From a virus, in the IMG/VR virus record IMGVR_UViG_3300042301_001264, positions 1-30,103 of that record: a stretch of DNA of 30,103 nt; one strand, given 5' to 3'. Both the position numbers and the translations under genes were made by a program. The notes under the pieces were generated by a model that ran no database searches, was not told where the DNA came from, and was given only the letters and a program-made list of their open reading frames with translations. Below are positions 6,282 to 30,103 of this stretch, in pieces; position 1 is the first letter of the stretch; each line of letters begins with the position of its first letter.

Positions 6282-8870
6282 TTAAGCCTGTTGTAAATAT
6301 TGCTCCATCATTCTTCTTCTAATATCAGTTGGAGATTCTTCAACTTGCTCTTCTTCCATAGGCATTTCTTGTTGTTGACCCATAGCTTCTTCCATTCCCA
6401 TTCCCATTTGAGCGCCTGGTTGTGCCATAGCTTGCTCTTCTGGTGTTGGTTCATCTGCAAAGTTTATATCAGCTCCACTTAAATCTAATGGCTGTCCACC
6501 TGCTGTTTCTGGTGCAACCCTAGATTCTAATTCTGCTGGAACATCAATTTCTCCCATGTTCTCCATCTTATCGTCTTGCAATAACTTAGTTTTATTATCT
6601 CTAATGTTAGCTGCATCTCTTTCTTTAGCTTGAACAAATGAAGACTCAACTCTACCAGTTGCTGCAATTCTTTCTCTCTCTAAATCAAACTGACCACGTA
6701 ATTCAATTAGTTTAGCTTCCATTTCTGCTTTAGCTTGTACTAACTGAATATCAATCTGAGCTTGTAGCTGAGCAGTTTGTTGTTTAGCTTGTTCAGCAGC
6801 CATTGCAGATTGCTGTTGAATCTGACCATTTTGCTGTTGCATTTGTAAAGCTTCTTGTTGTTTTCTTTCCATGTTCTTACGAACTTTATAAGCTAAGAAC
6901 AATTCAGCTTGTTTTATATTCTGTATGTTGTTTAATCTAATAACATCACTAATGTCTAATTGACCTTGTTGTAATGCTACTTTAATTAACTCATCTAATT
7001 TAGCTTTTTCTTCTGCTGTAGGTTTATCAACAATAGAAATGCCAAATGTGTATTTAGTAATATCTGGAGAAACTTTTAATAAATCGACTGTTCCTCTTCC
7101 TAATGATTCAGCTATAGCATCTCCATTAGTTGTTCTAACTATATCTTGTATTCTAATGATAATAGCTTCAGATAATGACTGGGTAATTTGTTTGTCTGAA
7201 TAGATAATATCGCTAAGTGCGTTATTAGTACCAGATGCTGCTAACTGAGCAACAGTAGTCAATAACTTAGGGTTAGGAGTAGAGCCATCTGTTAATTCAT
7301 TTAACCCAAGTGTTTGACGTATCATGTCAAGGTTTTGGTTAATTAAATTCCAGTATTCAGCTATAGCTCCACCTGTTCCACCTTGTAATTCTTGTATTGC
7401 TGGAGGATTTGGTCTACCATCAAATGTAGTAGAACGACTTACTAATACCCCACGTTGTAAATACAAATCAATAATATCAGATGGTTTCATTGTTTGTCCA
7501 CCACCAGATAAACTAACTTCTTCTAATGCTGCTAGGTTAATGTTAAAACCTTTAGGTACAGATGTATTTAATTCATGCTGTAATCTATAGTAAGCTAATT
7601 GTATTGCATCAGCGTAAGGAATAATAGCTTCCATACGGCTGAATGTTTTCATATCAAAAAAGTCACAAGCATTTATGTGGTAACTTGATTTAGCACGAGC
7701 CATATTAACTGGGTCGCGTTTAATATCGTATTGCTTTCCGTAGTCAAATATGATGTCCGTACCAACAATCCATTTAGCCCTATATACACCTTGTACTTGC
7801 TTTCTTTTATATTTATCTTTCTTGTTATTATAGTCATCATATGAAGCTCTTCCAAAAATAGTATTTCCTCTTCTGTCAATTCGTTCTTCACGAACTAACT
7901 CATCAGCAGATATAATTTCTAAATCTAAAACCTGTACTTTACCTCTATTCCAAAAGTCAGAATAACTACCATAGTAAGCATTACCTACTGGGGTAGATGG
8001 TCTCCATTGGTTTGTAGAAGCATATTTGTAAATCATTTCAATGTCTTCATTGGTTAATTCACCATTAGACATTTGAATAACTTGCGCTACTGGAACTTCT
8101 AATATTTCTCCTGCATATCTTAAATCTCTAAAGTCAGGATATGTACAATAGCTTAATATTAATCTTCTTGGGTCAACTCTTCTAAATCCTACTAACTCAC
8201 CATCTCTGTAATCTTTATATGCAGATACACCATAGTCAAACAAATCTTGTAAAGTTTGTCTGCGTTGGCTTTCGTAATCATTTTGGCTAAATGTTAATTC
8301 AATTGCTTGTTCTGCTTCCATAGCAGTTTTATGACGCAACCCAATCTCATATATTTTAATGCCATCAATATCTTCTGGTTCTCCTTCTCCTGGTTGTATA
8401 GGAGCTGGTATTTCAGCTTGTTCTCCCATGACTTCTTTTTGAAGTTCTCTCATAGAGGCCTTCATCTTCATCATAGTAATTTGCTGTTCTAATTCTGTTT
8501 GTGCTAATGGGTCAATTGGGTCTATTTGAACGTCCCAATTTTGTTTTTCTAATAACCCTAAAGCTATTCTTCTAAACTTAGGAATAATAGGAAGTACCGA
8601 CCAATCTACTACTAATGTGTTATTTGTAGGGTCTTGGTCAGGAGTTAATACCTTTTTGTATCGGTCGATTGTTTGAGAACCACGCGCATAGGTTTTAACC
8701 CATTCGTATTTGTCTCGGCTTCTCCAACCTATTGAACCAAATGGGGTATCCCCATAAGCCGAATATGCAGCTCTACAATACTGTAATAAAAAAGGTTTCT
8801 CGGTTTTTCTTTTTGGGTCAATATTTTCGTCTGGAAAATTTACACCGACACTTGATACTATTTCTGCCAT
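6282..8870 (-). CDS. Portal protein
   Basis: The 862-residue protein follows the large terminase, as portals do, and would form the dodecameric ring through which DNA enters the head. The first 600 residues are mixed alpha/beta with portal-like segments such as RRVDPRRLILSY (about 226-237) and SYHINACDFFDMKTFSRMEA (about 394-413). The C-terminal 200 residues are long helices very rich in Gln and Met (QQQNGQIQQQSAMAAEQAK), probably a coiled-coil crown, ending in an acidic Met/Gln/Glu-rich tail. This length is large for portals in general but common in crAss-like phages. The call rests on order, size and composition. Confidence 0.82.
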   Translation of the reverse strand: MAEIVSSVGVNFPDENIDPKRKTEKPFLLQYCRAAYSAYGDTPFGSIGWRSRDKYEWVKTYARGSQTIDRYKKVLTPDQDPTNNTLVVDWSVLPIIPKFRRIALGLLEKQNWDVQIDPIDPLAQTELEQQITMMKMKASMRELQKEVMGEQAEIPAPIQPGEGEPEDIDGIKIYEIGLRHKTAMEAEQAIELTFSQNDYESQRRQTLQDLFDYGVSAYKDYRDGELVGFRRVDPRRLILSYCTYPDFRDLRYAGEILEVPVAQVIQMSNGELTNEDIEMIYKYASTNQWRPSTPVGNAYYGSYSDFWNRGKVQVLDLEIISADELVREERIDRRGNTIFGRASYDDYNNKKDKYKRKQVQGVYRAKWIVGTDIIFDYGKQYDIKRDPVNMARAKSSYHINACDFFDMKTFSRMEAIIPYADAIQLAYYRLQHELNTSVPKGFNINLAALEEVSLSGGGQTMKPSDIIDLYLQRGVLVSRSTTFDGRPNPPAIQELQGGTGGAIAEYWNLINQNLDMIRQTLGLNELTDGSTPNPKLLTTVAQLAASGTNNALSDIIYSDKQITQSLSEAIIIRIQDIVRTTNGDAIAESLGRGTVDLLKVSPDITKYTFGISIVDKPTAEEKAKLDELIKVALQQGQLDISDVIRLNNIQNIKQAELFLAYKVRKNMERKQQEALQMQQQNGQIQQQSAMAAEQAKQQTAQLQAQIDIQLVQAKAEMEAKLIELRGQFDLERERIAATGRVESSFVQAKERDAANIRDNKTKLLQDDKMENMGEIDVPAELESRVAPETAGGQPLDLSGADINFADEPTPEEQAMAQPGAQMGMGMEEAMGQQQEMPMEEEQVEESPTDIRRRMMEQYLQQA

Positions 8871-18019: not shown

Positions 18020-18033
18020 ATATAATACGTTAT
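18020..18033 (-). promoter_or_regulatory. Phage motif copy 6, upstream of the spike-base gene
   Basis: The minus strand reads ATAACGTATTATAT followed by TTG, overlapping the RepL-like stop codon and 17 bases before the next ATG. This copy also contains a TAnnTTTG-like string (TATATTTG). Confidence 0.6.
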
Positions 18034-18452
18034 TTGAACTTAGATATTCTAACCCCATTAAACATTAGATTAGGGTTAACCCTGTAGACGTACTTCCTTT
18101 CTGTCTTGGCAATCACATTACGCTTTATTAGCTCCTTTACGCCATTATAATACCCTGTCTTACCAATATTACCTATTATTGATTTAACGTCCGTATAGTC
18201 GATATAAACTAGGTTATTGCCCTTTTCTAACTTAAACACTACATATGACAATAGCTGGTAGCCAATATAAGGCAACCCATAGATAGCCTTGGCGAACTCA
18301 TCAGTATACACCTTGACAAAAGGTAAGCTATCAATAGTCAGAAACCTATCATCTTCCATTACGTCCATAACCTCACCATTGTCTACATCTACCAAACGCT
18401 TAACAGGTATCTTTTTGGCAACCCTGCGTATGCCTTTTAACTCATTGTCCAT
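18030..18452 (-). CDS. RepL-like replication initiator (winged helix)
   Basis: Read from the ATG at 18452, this is 140 residues (an upstream TTG would add 5). The core is a winged-helix: FVKVYTDEFAKAIYGL, then GYQLLSYVVFKLEKGNN, YTDVKSIIGNIGKTGYYNGVK (likely recognition helix) and RKYVYRVNPNLMFNG at the end. The last part matches the VYxVNPxLxxxG end of RepL-type plasmid initiators, which bind DNA and start leading-strand replication; RepL homologues are reported in some crAss-like phages. It faces away from the large non-coding hub, a plausible origin region. Confidence 0.65.
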   Translation of the reverse strand: MDNELKGIRRVAKKIPVKRLVDVDNGEVMDVMEDDRFLTIDSLPFVKVYTDEFAKAIYGLPYIGYQLLSYVVFKLEKGNNLVYIDYTDVKSIIGNIGKTGYYNGVKELIKRNVIAKTERKYVYRVNPNLMFNGVRISKFK

Positions 18453-18456
18453 AGCA

Positions 18457-18488
18457 CAAATGTACAACTACTTTTTCCGCTATACAAA
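18457..18488 (-). promoter_or_regulatory. Bacteroidota-type promoter for the RepL-like gene
   Basis: On the minus strand TTTG (18488-18485) is followed after 20 bases by TACATTTG (18464-18457), matching the TTTG / TAnnTTTG consensus. The predicted start would fall at or next to the ATG at 18452, so the transcript could be leaderless. Confidence 0.45.
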
Positions 18489-19000
18489 AATAATTATTCA
18501 CATATACGGAAAACCTACTACGCCCCATAAGGGTTTGAACCACCTTACTTCTTATAATAAAAGAAGGAGGCACTAAGTGTACTAATGGAAGTTAGCTACA
18601 TAAAGGTGGGGATGATATACATACTTTGTCATGATGGTCCTTTTTGGGGAATTGGCTTTTTTTTAATGGGTACCTTTGTACTTTGTAATTTTTTTTTACT
18701 TATATAAATTGATTTTAAGTACCTTATATTGAGTAACTAAAGGTAAAAAGCATATGGGACTATCTAAATACCTATAAATTACCCTTTTATATGCTTTGAG
18801 TAACTTATTAGTTTAGGTAATATCTCATAACTCATTGATTATTAATACTTTTCTTTATTGTAGTTACTTTTATAGTCGGGTAAATTGTAGTTTTATAGGT
18901 ACAAAATAACGCTATAATATAGTATTGACGCTATTTTAACTATTATTTTTTGTATAGTATTAATTCATTTTTTTAACTAACAAAACAAAAACAAAAAATT
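18489..19000. other. Divergent non-coding region between the two arms
   Basis: No credible ORF. It holds a hairpin (CTTCTT/AAGAAG, near 18548-18566), a plus-strand -7-like box TACCTTTG at 18671-18678, a direct repeat TTGAGTAACT (18729-18738 and 18796-18805) enclosing inverted repeats AAAGCATAT (18747-18755) and ATATGCTTT (18789-18797), and near the next gene two copies of TATAGTATT (18918 and 18953). Composition is very AT-rich. Likely promoters and operators, possibly an origin; nothing is decisive. Confidence 0.5.
18729..18805. repeat. Nested direct and inverted repeat
   Basis: TTGAGTAACT occurs at 18729-18738 and 18796-18805 in the same orientation; between them AAAGCATAT (18747-18755) is repeated inverted as ATATGCTTT (18789-18797). 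The unit is about 77 bases and may be a regulator or initiator binding array. Confidence 0.45.
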
Positions 19001-19516
19001 ATGTCAACACAATTAAACACTCCGCAAAAAGCTAAAAACATTAAAGCTACCAACAAAAGCAAAGAAGCTATTAAACCAATTAATAATAGCATGGCAAAAA
19101 CAAATAAGAAAAAAGCCGCTAAAAAAGTACGTATAGTATTTTTAAATGAGGGTATAACGGGTAAAAAGTTAGCCGAAATTAAGGGTATATCTTACGAAAA
19201 TTACGCCACGGCTGAATTAACTTTGAGTGCACACCTTAAAAACATTTTAACACACGGCAAAGCGTTTTTAAATAGTTTTTCTAATTATAATGATAATACC
19301 TATAAATTGCCTTTAATATTAGATAGTTTAACAGAAGAGCAAAAATATGTTACAAAGATAGAAAAAAATAAAGACGGGAGTACAAAACTTGATAAAAAAG
19401 GCAATATAGTACGTACGTTTATACTTGACAAAGACGGCAATAAAGTAAAAAGGTACTTTACTTATAAGCAAGTACAAAACTTTGTAGCTAATTACTACAA
19501 AAACTTAAGCAAGTAA
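19001..19516 (+). CDS. Lysine-rich protein of unknown function, first gene of the right arm
   Basis: The 171-residue protein has a disordered, Lys/Asn/Thr-rich first third, then a globular part from about 40 (KKVRIVFLNEGITGKKLAEI) with a helical segment, and a beta-hairpin-like repeat of KDGS and KDGN turns near 125-150. I do not recognise it. As the first gene facing right from the hub and bounded by a perfect 12-bp hairpin, it is probably an early, separately transcribed gene; the charge suggests nucleic-acid binding. The leader is A/C-rich (CAAAACAAAAACAAAAAATT). Confidence 0.6.
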   Translation: MSTQLNTPQKAKNIKATNKSKEAIKPINNSMAKTNKKKAAKKVRIVFLNEGITGKKLAEIKGISYENYATAELTLSAHLKNILTHGKAFLNSFSNYNDNTYKLPLILDSLTEEQKYVTKIEKNKDGSTKLDKKGNIVRTFILDKDGNKVKRYFTYKQVQNFVANYYKNLSK

Positions 19517-19521
19517 TAATA

Positions 19522-19551
19522 TATAGGGCTATATTAATTTATAGCCCTATA
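19522..19551 (+). terminator. Perfect 12-bp hairpin after the first right-arm gene
   Basis: TATAGGGCTATA pairs perfectly with TATAGCCCTATA around a TTAATT loop, 5 bases after the stop codon. No U-run follows, so it is a 3'-end stabiliser or the first stem of the structured region rather than a textbook terminator. Confidence 0.5.
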
Positions 19552-19679
19552 ATTGCCTTATAATAGTAGGTATTTTTAATATGTTCAATTCATATATAGG
19601 GCACTATAATATAGTTAATGTAATTTATACAAAGTTATGCAATTTAAAAAAAATGTACGCCATATTGCCGTAAGGTAAC

Positions 19680-19962
19680 AGCGAAATGATATAGTACATT
19701 TTTCAATTTTACGGGTAAAGTAACTATAAAAGCGAAATGCTTTTTACTCCCGTAAGCCGTACAAAGTACGCTAATTGTTTTTATTAGTTTTGTTTTTATA
19801 GCCTACATTTATAGGGTATAATTAAGCAAGTGCCGTTAATACGGCTTGTATGCAAATAGTTAGGTATTTAATATATCTTAATAGCTCAATGAGTACACAA
19901 TAAAGGGTATTTATTTATAAGTTAGCGAAATGCTAATTAATAAATACAAGTAGCGAAATGCT
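19680..19962 (+). repeat. AGCGAAATG(CT) repeat, four copies
   Basis: AGCGAAATG occurs at 19680-19688, 19731-19739, 19924-19932 and 19952-19960; the last three extend to AGCGAAATGCT. In those three the flanks differ but remain complementary (AAAAGC/GCTTTT, TTAGC/GCTAA, TAGC/GCTA), so each is a hairpin with a GAAAT loop. The first copy lacks the pairing. Confidence 0.7.
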
Positions 19963-19972
19963 ATTTTATTGT
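19897..19972 (+). ncRNA. Three-way junction with two GAAAT-loop hairpins
   Basis: ACAATAAA (19897-19904) pairs with TTTATTGT (19965-19972). Inside, GTATTTATT (19907-19915) pairs with AATAAATAC (19939-19947) and carries TTAGC(GAAAT)GCTAA; next to it stands TAGC(GAAAT)GCTA (19951-19963). All stems are perfect in the sequence. Confidence 0.5.
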
Positions 19973-20077
19973 TATATGGCTTATCCCATTAAGGTATCTT
20001 ACAAATAATGTAAGGTATTCAATATAATAAATATCTAATCAAGTAATTATTAATCATTTTATTTATTACAGAGCAAA

Positions 20078-20138
20078 GGTAGTAGTAATTTAGAATTGAT
20101 AACAGCAATGTTATGCGGTTCATTTACCGCCTACTATC
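20078..20138 (+). ncRNA. Compact three-way junction with a GNRA loop upstream of a gene
   Basis: GGTAGTAG (20078-20085) pairs with CTACTATC (20131-20138) with one G-U. Inside are ATAACA(GCAA)TGTTAT (20099-20114) and GCGGT(TCATTT)ACCGC (20115-20130), which abut each other and the closing stem without spacer, as in coaxially stacked RNA. The next ATG is 30 bases downstream, so it may act as a leader element. Confidence 0.5.
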
Positions 20139-20167
20139 TCATTTTATAACTTTTAAAATATATAATC

Positions 20168-20428
20168 ATGAATAAAGATATCAATTTTCTTCAATCAAGA
20201 AGATATAAACCAATGAGCAAAAATAATATCAAGCCCTTAACTTACGGCAATGTTAATAAAAGCTATACTAACGCTATTGATATTAACACAAACAGACAAA
20301 TTAATCTTAATCAATTAATTGTCAATACCCATAATGCAATAAAAGATACTAAAAAGATAGTATCTAATACTATAATTAAAACTAATTATCACCGACAATC
20401 AAGGTCTACAATAGGATTAATAAAATAA
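20168..20428 (+). CDS. Asn/Lys-rich small protein of unknown function
   Basis: An 86-residue protein rich in Asn, Ile, Lys and Thr, starting MNKDINFLQSRRYKPMSK. No domain is recognisable and the low complexity leaves some doubt about coding. It is the first ORF after the structured non-coding region, with a 30-base leader after the last junction, and may be controlled by it. Confidence 0.45.
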   Translation: MNKDINFLQSRRYKPMSKNNIKPLTYGNVNKSYTNAIDINTNRQINLNQLIVNTHNAIKDTKKIVSNTIIKTNYHRQSRSTIGLIK

Positions 20429-20463
20429 TAATACATAATCAATAACTCTTAAAACAAAACAAC

Positions 20464-20628
20464 ATGAGAGAAATCCAATTCCAAAACCGAACCGAGCAAG
20501 GCTTCCGTTTGGCTTACATGAACCTAAAATCTAGGTACAGAAATGTAAAATTTGTTTGTAGTAATATCCACGGCTTACTAAGTGGGTATTTTATTGTTTC
20601 ATCTTATAAAAAGTATAGCCATGTTTAA
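20464..20628 (+). CDS. 54-residue protein coupled to a membrane protein
   Basis: It begins MREIQFQNRTEQGFRLAYMN and ends SSYKKYSHV. The A/C-rich leader (AAAACAAAACAAC) is the type used by its neighbours, and its stop overlaps the next start by 8 bases (ATGTTTAA). Basic and aromatic, with a strand-rich second half; function unknown. Confidence 0.5.
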   Translation: MREIQFQNRTEQGFRLAYMNLKSRYRNVKFVCSNIHGLLSGYFIVSSYKKYSHV

Positions 20629-20800
20629 ACTTCATCACTTGCTTGCTGTGTTATCTTTATTGTTAATCGGAGGCTCAACAATTACAATGATACACGGGCA
20701 AACAATGACCGAGCTAATCATGTCCCTAATCGGTATGGTTGAGGGCGGTATTATCTTTCTTATCTACGCAAAGATAGATGAGAAGATAAATAGCAAATAG
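20621..20800 (+). CDS. Small two-helix membrane protein
   Basis: Read from the ATG at 20621 (MFKLHHLLAVLSLLLIGGST), it has 59 residues and two hydrophobic helices (about 7-25 and 33-52) with a charged C-terminus KIDEKINSK. A start further upstream at 20582 exists, but the 8-base overlap with the preceding gene favours 20621. Unknown role; early phage membrane proteins of this size often modify the host envelope. Confidence 0.55.
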   Translation: MFKLHHLLAVLSLLLIGGSTITMIHGQTMTELIMSLIGMVEGGIIFLIYAKIDEKINSK

Positions 20801-20813
20801 CACTTTCTTTTTC

Positions 20814-20828
20814 TCCACGTTCATCTTT
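20814..20828 (+). repeat. Leader repeat TCCACGTTCATCTTT, copy 1
   Basis: This 15-mer in a pyrimidine-rich stretch lies 26 bases before the ATG at 20854. An identical copy at 25218-25232 lies 28 bases before the ATG at 25260. The same position relative to two unrelated genes suggests a shared promoter or post-transcriptional element. Confidence 0.55.
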
Positions 20829-20853
20829 TTCTTTTACCTACAAAACACAACGT

Positions 20854-21018
20854 ATGTCCTTTTTGACAATTTTAAAAATCAGTTTTACAATAGCCCTAAT
20901 TACGTTAGGGCTTCTTTCTTGCTCAACGCCAAAAGCGTCATGGGGCAAAGGCGATGGCATGAATAAACATTGCCAAAACAAATATGTATCTAATCGTGTA
21001 CCCTTTAATTTTAATTAG
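20854..21018 (+). CDS. Small lipoprotein
   Basis: A 54-residue protein with a classical lipoprotein signal: MSFLTILKIS, a hydrophobic core, then LGLLSC with Cys23 as the lipidated residue. The mature part of about 32 residues starts CSTPKASWGKGDG and has one more Cys. A tiny phage lipoprotein in an early region could act in superinfection exclusion, as some phage lipoproteins do, but that is conjecture. Confidence 0.6.
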   Translation: MSFLTILKISFTIALITLGLLSCSTPKASWGKGDGMNKHCQNKYVSNRVPFNFN

Positions 21019-22998: not shown

Positions 22999-24240
22999 AT
23001 GCCAACAACAACAGAAGAGCAAGATGTACTTCATTGTGCTGATTGCTCAACAGAAATAACAAGCGAAGATTATGTAGACAATGTAGGTGACCCTATATGC
23101 GAAGATTGTAACGACAACTATCACTCATGCGCTGGTTGTAGTGATGTTATCCACAGCGATGATACTTATTTCGCAAATGATGACTCTTGGTGTAATGATT
23201 GTTACGTCAACAGATTTTCTACATGTGATGATTGTAATGAAGTAATTCGCAACGACGATATATGCCAAGTCCATGGTAGAAGTGGTAGTGAAAGATATGT
23301 ATGTGATGATTGTCGTTCTGATTACTATTGGTGTGAGAGTTGTGATGAGTATGTTCATGAGGATAACTATTGTCAAGACGATTTGTGCAATGATTGTTAT
23401 AACGATAGATATGGTGACGATGATGATGACGGTAGCAGCAGCAGTAAAGAAATCATACGCAGCTACAATTACAAACCTACCCCTAAGTTCTACAAGGTGT
23501 CCGAGAATGACAACGTGTATCTAGGTATTGAGTTAGAGGTAGAGCGTGGAGATAGTAATGTAACACACAAGGCTATGGCTGAAATGGTTAGCAATGACTT
23601 CTTATACTTCAAGAGTGACGGTTCACTTAACAATGGGTTTGAGATTGTAACCCACCCTATGACTATATCGTATATCAAGAAGCATAAGAATGTATGGGCA
23701 GATATACTTAACCTATTGCGTAGCAACAAGTATCGTAGCTATGACACTCGTACTTGTGGTATGCATATCCATATCAGCAAGAATGCCTTTACAACCTGGC
23801 ATCTATATCGCTTCATGAAGTTCTTTGTTGACAATAGTGACTTTGTTACCAAGATATCTCAGCGTAAGATAGAGAACCTTGACCGATGGGCAGCCCTTAC
23901 CGATGACCCAAGCGAGAGTACTAAAGAGTACACACAAGAGACGCTTATGTACAAGGCAAAGAAAAAGCGTGGCAATAGCAAGCGTTATCTTGCTGTAAAT
24001 TTACAGAATGATAATTCAGTAGAAGTTCGTATCTTTAGGGGTACGCTTAATGACTCATCGTTCTTCAAGAACATCGAGTTTGTTCAAGCGTTGTATGACT
24101 ATACCAAGTCTATCCCTGACCCTGATATGAGTCTAAAATCTTTTCTAACTTTTATTAAAGATAACAATGAATATCCGTATCTTCGCAAGTTCATTGCTGA
24201 TAAAAATATTAATCCTTTCACTAACAATCAAAACAATTAA
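22999..24240 (+). CDS. Zinc-ribbon amidoligase (COOH-NH2 ligase superfamily)
   Basis: The 413-residue protein has two parts. Residues 1-135 carry a series of CxxC pairs (C13/C16, C34/C37, C44/C47, C65/C68, C76/C79, C102/C105, C112/C115, C130/C133) that should form several zinc ribbons. After an Asp/Ser linker, residues about 172-400 match the putative amidoligase family: LGIELEVE (175-182), SDGSLNNGFEIVTHP (206-220), CGMHIHIS (253-260), AVNLQN and VEVRIFRG (341-348). Relatives of glutamine synthetase, these enzymes are predicted to join a carboxylate to an amine using ATP. The glutamine amidotransferase gene follows after 3 bases, so the two are likely partners. The substrate is unknown. Confidence 0.75.
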   Translation: MPTTTEEQDVLHCADCSTEITSEDYVDNVGDPICEDCNDNYHSCAGCSDVIHSDDTYFANDDSWCNDCYVNRFSTCDDCNEVIRNDDICQVHGRSGSERYVCDDCRSDYYWCESCDEYVHEDNYCQDDLCNDCYNDRYGDDDDDGSSSSKEIIRSYNYKPTPKFYKVSENDNVYLGIELEVERGDSNVTHKAMAEMVSNDFLYFKSDGSLNNGFEIVTHPMTISYIKKHKNVWADILNLLRSNKYRSYDTRTCGMHIHISKNAFTTWHLYRFMKFFVDNSDFVTKISQRKIENLDRWAALTDDPSESTKEYTQETLMYKAKKKRGNSKRYLAVNLQNDNSVEVRIFRGTLNDSSFFKNIEFVQALYDYTKSIPDPDMSLKSFLTFIKDNNEYPYLRKFIADKNINPFTNNQNN

Positions 24241-24243
24241 ACT

Positions 24244-25149
24244 ATGTGTATCGCAATCGTAAATCCAAAAGCAGTAACCCTTAAGAAACAAATCCTACAG
24301 AATTGTTGGGATAATAATAATGATGGTGCAGGTATCCTGTATATCAATAACAACAAAGTAGTAGCCAAGAAAGAAATGACTGACTTCAATATCTTCTATG
24401 GTTATTATCAAGAAGCCAAGCGTTCAGGTAATGACGTTATCCTTCACTTCCGTATCGGTACAAGTGGTGGTGTTAACGAACACAACTGTCACCCATTCCA
24501 TGTACAAGATGATACATGGTTTGTACACAATGGTATGTTAGATGTTCATGTCCCACACAACAGCCCTATATCTGACACCCAGATATTCAACAATGGGTTC
24601 CTCAAAGGCTTACCTAAGGACTTTATGTATAACGATACTTTGCTTGACCTTATTGAGTATAGTATAGGCAATGGTAACAAGTTCATATTCTTTAACGAGC
24701 ACGGCCATTGGCGTATCGTCAACGAGCAAGCAGGTACGTGGGACTTGGGTTGTTGGTTCAGTAACAAGTCTTATAGTTATAGTTATAAAAAACCTACGTA
24801 CAATAACTATACGTATGGTAGTGCATACTCCCCAAGTACAAGCGTAGGTTATCCTCGTGTGTACAATGATTGGGACGATACCTATGATGTTAAGTCTGAA
24901 TACAAATGGGATAGCGACACTAATAGTGAGGATATGATGTGTGAGTCTTGTTGTGAGTTATACCACAAAGATGAGTTAGAAGAGTTGCCTGATTTCAATA
25001 ACGCTATGGTATGTTGGGATTGCTATGACTCTATGATGTATGAGATGTATGGCGATGAATACATTAGCGAGCGTGATGAAGAAATTGTCCACTATAATAA
25101 ATCTTACGACCAACCAAAGTCAGCTTATGACCCTTTGGCTTGGAAATAA
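24244..25149 (+). CDS. Class II glutamine amidotransferase with C-terminal zinc ribbon
   Basis: The 301-residue protein starts MCIAIV; after Met removal Cys2 is the N-terminal nucleophile of the Ntn-hydrolase fold, which releases ammonia from glutamine. Other family marks are DGAGILY (27-33), LHFRIGTSGG (67-76), NCHPFHV (81-87) and FVHNGML (93-99). The glutaminase part ends near 170. A Tyr/Ser-rich linker (175-210) and a CxxC...CxxC ribbon (C233/C236, C257/C260) follow. It is shorter than PurF or GlmS and lacks their synthetase domains; the neighbouring amidoligase could supply the ligase function. Confidence 0.78.
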   Translation: MCIAIVNPKAVTLKKQILQNCWDNNNDGAGILYINNNKVVAKKEMTDFNIFYGYYQEAKRSGNDVILHFRIGTSGGVNEHNCHPFHVQDDTWFVHNGMLDVHVPHNSPISDTQIFNNGFLKGLPKDFMYNDTLLDLIEYSIGNGNKFIFFNEHGHWRIVNEQAGTWDLGCWFSNKSYSYSYKKPTYNNYTYGSAYSPSTSVGYPRVYNDWDDTYDVKSEYKWDSDTNSEDMMCESCCELYHKDELEELPDFNNAMVCWDCYDSMMYEMYGDEYISERDEEIVHYNKSYDQPKSAYDPLAWK

Positions 25150-29092: not shown

Positions 29093-29467
29093 ATGGGCAG
29101 TAGACCTCAAAGAAAGAAAGAGTACGTACGCTTTAGTATGAACCCTGACAATTATCGTATTGTTATGGGTGGCATTCTGCATTTTGAAGTAGAATGTAAT
29201 GATGACTCTACGCCTGACTTAGGGTTAGAAGGGATAGAAGGTTTAGATAGTAAATGCTGGATGGATATGGCAATCAAAATGGAATCTATTGTAGCTATCA
29301 AACCAACTGGTTCATTAGAATCTGAAATCACCCATGGTAAAGCTTCAATAGTATTAGATAGTGGTCCTTGGGAAACTATATCTACTAATATACCATACGA
29401 ATATATGTGTGCTATATGGGAAGATTACCTAGCAGGACCAATTAAAACAATATATCGTGGGCAATAG
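29093..29467 (+). CDS. Protein of unknown function upstream of the sigma factor
   Basis: A 124-residue beta-rich protein (MGSRPQRKKEYVRFSMNPDN) with FEVECNDDSTPDLG in the middle and a C-terminal helix with Trp. I do not recognise a family. It overlaps the sigma-factor gene by 11 bases and probably shares the host-type promoter, so it may act with that factor in the switch of transcription. Confidence 0.55.
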   Translation: MGSRPQRKKEYVRFSMNPDNYRIVMGGILHFEVECNDDSTPDLGLEGIEGLDSKCWMDMAIKMESIVAIKPTGSLESEITHGKASIVLDSGPWETISTNIPYEYMCAIWEDYLAGPIKTIYRGQ

Positions 29468-30103
29468 CTTCAAATCAATATCTGTAAACCCTACTAATGT
29501 AGACTTTGACAATGATTACTCGCTGTCAATACTACTTAATGACCCTATCTTTAAAAGAAAGGCAGCCCAAATGAAGAATGAAGAAGCTATGGAGCTATTC
29601 AAACTTTATAAGTCAACAGGTGAGTTAAAGTATAGAGATAAAATTGTTGAAGGTTACATGAAGCTTATGCTATATGTTGCTATTAAGTATTGGCAACCTG
29701 GGTTTTTAGTTAGTGACCTACTGCAAGAAGCCGTTATGGGTTTCATGTTAGGGATAGACAAGTATAACAATGAGAAGTATTCAGAGTTCGGTAAAGCTAA
29801 GCTATCATCTTATTGCTTCTTCTATAGCAGGAAATACATAATAGACTTTATAGAAAAGAATAAATGTATAGTAAAGATTACCTACTCACCGTTAAGAGCA
29901 TCACAAAAACTTAAGAAGATGATGGACACAGCAGTAGCTGTAATGGAGTTGGACGAAAGAATGATACCTTTAGATGTTGTATTAAAACAAAACGTAACTA
30001 TGGAAATGGCAGCAGCACTCGGTGCACTATCTGCGACAACTGCAATCGTATCAACAAATAACCACGACGAGATAGACTTTGTATCCGATGGTGGTATATA
30101 CTC
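29457..30103 (+). CDS. Sigma-70 family RNA polymerase sigma factor, N-terminal part
   Basis: The reading frame is open to the right edge (215 residues seen). An in-frame TAG at 29430 limits the start; the only good start is GTG at 29457, the next ATG being at 29571. Sigma region 2 is clear at about 60-137: KLMLYVAIKYW, FLVSDLLQEAVMGFMLGIDK, then SSYCFFYSRKYIIDFIEKN, the residues that bind the polymerase clamp and melt the -10 element. KITYSPLR (140-147) may begin region 3. Region 4 is not recognisable in the visible part. A phage sigma factor could direct host polymerase to the AACGTATTATAT promoters of the window. Confidence 0.75.
   Translation, partial: MGNSFKSISVNPTNVDFDNDYSLSILLNDPIFKRKAAQMKNEEAMELFKLYKSTGELKYRDKIVEGYMKLMLYVAIKYWQPGFLVSDLLQEAVMGFMLGIDKYNNEKYSEFGKAKLSSYCFFYSRKYIIDFIEKNKCIVKITYSPLRASQKLKKMMDTAVAVMELDERMIPLDVVLKQNVTMEMAAALGALSATTAIVSTNNHDEIDFVSDGGIY

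Follow-up and report, generated by a model that had tools for sequence, protein, structure and literature searches.

Few large RNAs are known from phages. The ROOL and GOLLD classes form homo-oligomeric particles composed solely of RNA, and their proximity to tRNA genes is a tendency, rather than a strictly defining property. According to one account, the functions of ROOL, GOLLD and OLE are still poorly understood (PMC12286853). Smaller RNA elements recognised by proteins provide a second point of reference: in another article, phage boxB loops are described as including GNRA-like pentaloops that are bound by N peptides, and RNase MRP as containing a GNRA-like pentaloop in which an extra residue after the last A faces protein (PMC12550061).

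The locus described here lies in a 30,103-nucleotide stretch of viral DNA, hereafter the window, in which an ORF-free gap on the + strand (19517..20167) is the putative body of a large structured RNA of about 620-650 nt. We consider the odds somewhat better than even, at a probability of roughly 0.57, that this gap encodes a large structured RNA belonging to a new, modular phage family. A literature search of titles and abstract openings, covering few subscription journals, found no description of such an RNA.

The folded gap and its surroundings

The gap forms one side of a genomic hub. Directly 5' of it is an ORF for a basic protein of 171 aa (19001..19516, +), and directly 3' of it an 86-aa ORF (20168-20428, +). 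The main genes across the hub from the gap are on the - strand, and this divergent side carries the gene for a RepL-like protein (18030..18467, -; Pfam PF05732, E 3.2e-4). The terminase, portal and capsid proteins encoded in the window match phage families. Among the matches listed, the terminase shares 29% identity with that of Flavobacterium elemo phages across 95% of its length, and of its 88 matching records, 83 come from Flavobacterium or Cellulophaga phages, suggesting the host probably belongs to the Bacteroidota; as judged by such similarity, the nearest isolates to this group of phages infect Flavobacteriia. A DNA search of annotated phages with the locus returned no match.

Elsewhere in the window, a sigma-factor-like protein (29457-30101; PHROG 351; Sigma70_r2 at 22.9 bits, against a Pfam cut-off of 24) is truncated by the window's end, and an amidoligase-like protein adjoins a glutamine-amidotransferase-like protein (22999-25149), with similar neighbours in loci L062 and L125 by eye. 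Three contigs near the window's lineage (L120/L208, L121/L209 and L212) end either inside the RepL-like gene or at most 600 bases to its hub side, and assembly may stumble at the hub.

The initial annotation, made from the letters, described the region as gene-free, filled with stems and structured beyond chance, and each of these statements was borne out. Firstly, the longest ORF within 19517-20167 encodes 34 aa. Secondly, the minimum free energy (MFE) of its + strand was -160.9 kcal/mol, compared to -122.7 +/- 5.8 for 60 dinucleotide shuffles (z -6.58); repeat runs with 20 and 40 shuffles gave z values of -5.85 and -6.62, and none of the shuffles in the three runs was as stable as the native sequence. 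The - strand is also folded (z -5.53, and -5.83 in a second run), as near-perfect stems would lead one to expect. Folding was at the shuffled level in the neighbouring gap at 18453-19000 (z -0.46 for the + strand, -1.09 for the - strand), as it was in the ORF at 19001-19516 (z 0.04 and 0.17). The signal is uneven within the gap, with 150-nt pieces ranging from z -0.70 to -4.18 on the + strand, and the gap 3' of the 86-aa ORF (20429-20983) is mildly folded (z -3.80, +) and, by eye, contains a short ORF that starts at 20464.

Thirdly, all of the stems that had been assigned coordinates are present in the letters, the repeat list and the MFE fold. All lie on the + strand, beginning with a perfect 12-bp hairpin (19522-19533/19540-19551) that stands where nine relatives have the junction termed module A below. 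A 10-bp stem in the MFE fold (19649-19658/19694-19703) surrounds a possible GNRA hairpin, TTGCC-GTAA-GGTAA (19665-19678), which was identified by eye and is absent from the MFE fold. Next is a stacked hairpin of 17 pairs (19709..19755) capped by C-GAAAU-G, with its loop at 19734-19738. The same cap recurs on both hairpin arms of the module B junction (19897..19972), which is closed by an 8-bp stem (19897-19904/19965-19972) and has its pentaloops at 19927-19931 and 19955-19959. The 3' terminal junction (20078..20138) consists of an outer stem, the hairpin ATAACA-GCAA-TGTTAT, and a GCGG/CCGC hairpin. All four copies of AGCGAAATG in the 30-kb window are on the + strand of 19517-20167, compared to an expectation of 0.10; the copy at 19680 is outside any GNRA-type hairpin. 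At the 3' end, no stem with a U-tract was found near 20140, no ribozyme was found by Rfam (E<=10, 18450-21000), and neither the terminator pattern nor the twister pattern seen in relatives is present in the gap.

Hub gaps of related phages

Two contigs are near-identical to the window, with zero differences inside the gap. As the block over which they match is longer than the gap, this identity is no evidence of selection, and no covariation is countable on the window's own stems, since its full relatives are identical there. More distant relatives were collected by three routes. Searching viral contigs for two copies of GCGAAATGC within 36 bases returned 111 stretches, among which L021, L046 and L062 are hub homologues, and L069 and L074 are on near-identical relatives; the remainder were judged unrelated from their letters, without gene-by-gene annotation. 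Protein searches brought L125, L129, L130, L132 and L213, with the 80 protein-search loci being used only where a hub was recognisable (L129, L130 and L132, besides known contigs). Finally, L230, L231 and L234 came from a search with the module A consensus.

Including the window, this gave 12 phages in which a small basic gene is followed by an ORF-free gap of 546-905 bp. A relative of the RepL-like protein is encoded across the hub in nine of the 11 others (L021, L046, L125, L129, L130, L132, L213, L230 and L234; blastp E 0.010 to 1e-13, across ten sequences), and was not seen in L062 or L231. Pfam scans for RepL in four of these phages placed the window's protein alone above the cut-off, with L130 below it and no match for L021 or L132; the L130 protein had no match among annotated phages. 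A RepL search of genome contigs produced 86 pattern matches, none of which was confirmed.

In all 12 gaps, the native sequence was more stable than any of its 40 shuffles (z ranging from -2.53 for L230 to -7.37 for L132). The stretch upstream of the small gene was ordinary in 11 of them (z 1.60 to -1.52, the controls for L062 and L231 being cut stretches), the exception being L129 (z -5.44). By eye, the L046 gap as folded takes in a short ORF that was left outside the L021 gap. These are not independent observations, as gaps share DNA: L062 and L125 are 97% identical over 377 bases, L046 and L062 86% over 514, and L230 and L234 92% over 546, with the 3' end being common to L021, L046, L062, L125 and L132 at 76-97% identity. 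Hence the terminators represent about two lineages, and the tandem hairpins about four, one being the window, whose gap resembles none of the other 11 at the DNA level (blastn E<=1e-3). The middle parts of the gaps vary between phages.

Two further leads were set aside. The L213 gap has a single 41-base match to Erwinia phages among annotated phages, which was taken as chance, and in L217-L219, which have the RepL side in common with the hub phages, the gap measures about 1.2 kb and has neither a module A match nor a tandem pentaloop pair. In these three related phages (reverse complement, 4448 to about 5700), the hub gap is of another make-up, and is partly variable among them.

Module A is a 58-nt three-way junction just 3' of the small gene, represented by the model R1, which matches nine of the 12 hub phages. 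R1 has no match in L062, L132 or the window, where the best score was 11.1 bits on the - strand; in L062 and L132 the 5' fold looks like module A by eye, yet without an R1 match. The first arm bears an 11-nt loop, UUGAAAAUARA in eight of ten sequences, with the core UGAAAAUA in all ten, and the loop of the second arm is UYGRA; four of the ten sequences came from a pattern requiring these loop letters. That pattern, which fixed the loops and a few stem letters and left the outer stem free, detected 11 stretches in viral contigs, ten of which are R1 matches: the six model-building contigs, and L230, L231, L234 and L237 (R1 scores of 53.8-70.9 bits). The eleventh, L235, matched the pattern and not R1, and none of nine stretches detected in genome contigs was confirmed by R1. 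L237 carries a lone module A (7660-7716; 70.9 bits) in a 199-bp gap of another phage with no recognised hub, and was left out of the 12.

Across six sequences, 99.1% of the cells in module A's stems are paired and 14 of the 18 pairs have changed on both sides, with none of 500 shuffles attaining any of five measures. Across ten sequences, in a MAFFT alignment that has the L237 outer stem out of register, 94.4% of cells are paired and 65 are double-change cells, compared to 21.2 in shuffles; the count of doubly changed pairs (14) was attained by 50 of 500 shuffles, and is unexceptional. As the structure was written from the same sequences that were tested, controls in which it was slid out of place matter, and in these the paired proportion drops to 31-58%. 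G-U pairs are near absent (1 of 107 cells with six sequences, 3 of 179 with ten).

A structural feature that the window shares with some of its relatives is the pentaloop hairpin. At least two C-GNAAY-G hairpins on the + strand, and none on the - strand, are found in seven of the 12 gaps (the window, L021, L046, L062, L125, L230 and L234), and two or more occurred in none of 1000 shuffles of each gap. Three C-GAAAU-G hairpins are present in the window, two of them in tandem; L021, L046 and L062 have two each, with a third of the wider C-GNAAY-G type in L021, whereas L125 has two C-GCAAU-G, and L230 and L234 each combine one C-GCAAU-G with one C-GCAAC-G. None is present in the gaps of L129, L130, L132, L213 or L231. 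This motif was the basis for selecting L021, L046 and L062, and not for selecting L125, L230 and L234. Outer stems able to close the hairpin pair, as in module B, can be written for all seven gaps; these stems were registered by hand, the MAFFT alignment being too poor for pair counts, and the closed junction appears in the MFE folds of the window, L062, L230 and L234, and not in those of L021, L046 and L125. Across 4.86 million bases (both strands, with overlapping loci recounted), L125, L230 and L234 were the only new contigs with tandem pairs among those not fetched by the motif. Seven loci that were fetched by it (L013, L029, L040, L050, L063, L077 and L078) have tandem pairs outside hubs, so the pair alone is not diagnostic. 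Judged from its letters, a loop of G-N-A-A plus one residue is compatible with a GNRA fold in which a base is inserted before the closing pair.

The 3' ends of the gaps are of more than one kind. The terminator pattern AAGAAGGG...CCTTTCTTTT is present in six of the 12 (L021, L046, L062, L125, L132 and L213), and the core letters of a twister ribozyme in two (L129 and L130); neither is found in the window, L230, L231 or L234. The L130 motif matches Rfam twister-P1 at 44.3 bits (E 1.5e-6), below the gathering score of 67.2, and that of L129 has no Rfam match at E<=5. Rfam detected no ribozyme in L021, L132, L213, L230, L231 or L234. By eye, the motif in L129 and L130 comes after a hairpin that can be aligned with the terminator stem. 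Two unlike devices at a corresponding 3' point suggest that the sequence preceding them serves as a discrete RNA, released as a separate molecule. The twister-type motif is 5' of the next gene (6103-6156 in L130; near 5999 in L129). In L021, L046, L062, L125 and L132, another hairpin is seen just 3' of the terminator, with an AGCCRA loop and stem letters that, by eye, seemingly change in pairs; a TGGC following it could pair with the loop as a pseudoknot.

The upstream protein and competing explanations

The window's 171-aa protein has a pI of 10.0, and its first 50 residues include 13 K+R and 2 D+E. This tail is of low AlphaFold confidence and predicted to be disordered, with the rest forming a helical domain of moderate confidence; the model is weak overall (pLDDT 66.1). 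It had no fold match at E<=0.001 in a structure search, and the sequence matched no Pfam or PHROG family. Comparison with L004 found eight substitutions in the gene and two amino-acid replacements, each of them conservative (I to V), a pattern that is as in a real gene. The 12 upstream proteins all have a pI of 9.3-10.1, and Lys-rich N-termini, their first 50 residues containing 8-13 K+R. They are linked by blastp in 11 of the phages, with that of L231 similar to none. The window's protein is directly related to those of L021, L046, L062, L230 and L234 (E 1.7e-6 to 2.0e-4; 35% identity for L021 and 31% for L062), and through these to those of L125, L129, L130, L132 and L213; the L021 protein had no match among annotated phages.

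The small ORF has strong folding of its own (z from -3.19 to -6.15) in eight of the 12 phages, these being L021 (10762-11178), L129 (4985-5437) and six others, and not the window, L230, L231 or L234. Hence, in many of the phages, part of the coding region may belong to the folded unit, and coding sequence and RNA structure may overlap there.

The juxtaposition of a GNRA-like pentaloop RNA with a basic-tailed protein perhaps invites the idea of binding, and the tail of the 171-aa protein is perhaps the candidate partner. The basic gene partly defines the set of 12 phages, so its presence is no independent proof of partnership. If the gap does encode a large structured RNA, that RNA would be produced by + strand transcription 3' of the small basic gene and then released; the gap would be homologous to the other gaps, rather than hold a different RNA at the same place; and the pentaloops would be sites at which a protein docks, the likeliest being the upstream protein with its basic N-terminal tail, to form an RNA-protein particle early in infection. 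A large phage RNA was the initial annotation's own proposal. In its favour are a fold energy well beyond the values obtained from shuffles and the presence of equivalent gaps at this position in distant phages, together with the compensated stems of module A and a terminator or ribozyme motif in eight of the 12 gaps; against it, the window itself is without module A. The window's putative membership of the family rests on the locus and module B, not on module A, the 3' end or DNA similarity. A more specific version of this proposal is tentative: that the gaps constitute an additional class of giant, ornate RNA in phages, one made with its own small basic protein or else assembling via its GNRA-like pentaloops in the manner of ROOL and GOLLD, with 3' release by a terminator or a self-cleaving ribozyme depending on the phage.

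Of the alternatives, the one that best survives is a cis-acting leader for processive antitermination, like lambda N/nut or HK022 put, in which the basic protein would bind boxB-like pentaloops on the nascent RNA and enable polymerase to pass a terminator before the early genes. The order of basic gene, pentaloop hairpins, intrinsic terminator and early genes in L021, L046, L062 and L125 is that expected of such a system, as are the binding of N peptides to pentaloops and the basic, Lys-rich N-termini of the 12 upstream proteins. However, L129 and L130 have the twister motif with neither a terminator nor a pentaloop pair, L132 and L213 have a terminator without the pair, and in the window, L230 and L234 the pair is present and the terminator pattern absent. 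Furthermore, antitermination sites need far less than some 600 nt, and the known N peptides are rich in arginine, rather than lysine. This explanation is doubtful.

It is unlikely that the structure is specific to the window, whether as 3' UTR or 5' leader stems of early genes or as another RNA at the same place, with no function shared with the other gaps. Without DNA similarity, module A or a recognisable 3' end, the window's gap may hold a different RNA; the variable middles of the gaps and the mild folding of the next gap fit the same explanation. Nevertheless, the tandem C-GNAAY-G hairpins are strand-specific, and common to six other hub gaps.

Least probable of all, and very unlikely, is a DNA element, either an origin of replication or DNA hairpins extruded at the hub: the adjoining RepL-like gene, on which the initial annotation had drawn for this alternative, is real but marginal (20.7 bits, compared to a Pfam cut-off of 20.3), and there are changes of sign in AT and GC skew (near 18.5 kb and between about 18.5 and 20.5 kb, respectively), folding on both strands, and almost exclusively Watson-Crick pairs in module A, as a DNA cruciform would give, but little specific support emerged, with skew also tracking gene direction, no tandem iteron array in the window's repeat list, a somewhat stronger fold on the + strand, the pentaloop motif on one strand only, and terminator and twister signals in other hub gaps that suit RNA.

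Comparison with described systems

Rfam returned no match at gathering score across the window, and nothing of note even at E<=10 across 18450-21000, in agreement with the initial annotation's remark that the gap has no likeness to ROOL or GOLLD motifs; neither class was matched in 12 relative loci on 11 contigs (E<=1). The twister-P1 family (RF03160) resembles the 3' part of the L130 gap, and L129 has the same core letters, but the similarity is confined to these two relatives, does not extend to the window, and is below the Rfam gathering score. The likeness to the boxB elements of lambdoid phages lies in hairpins with GNRA-like pentaloops, close to a small basic protein of the phage, with a terminator behind them in some relatives. 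The hub gaps differ from boxB in their GNAAY loop, the arrangement of the hairpins as a tandem pair, and a context of 550-900 nt.

The window's gap is similar to ROOL and GOLLD in its length class, its position in a non-coding gap of a phage genome and its elaborate nested structure, and the hub family resembles GOLLD in having one conserved end and a variable rest (PMC12286853). Yet tRNA islands often lie close to ROOL and GOLLD, whereas the window, itself a fragment, has no tRNA genes in its 30 kb, and the hub gaps are instead directly behind a small basic protein gene. The hub locus would represent a family whose candidate protein partner is the product of the neighbouring gene, and whose small covarying modules are testable one by one. 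Distinguishing this putative family from ROOL and GOLLD are features of its own: a 5' module, a pentaloop junction, and an end formed by a terminator or a ribozyme.
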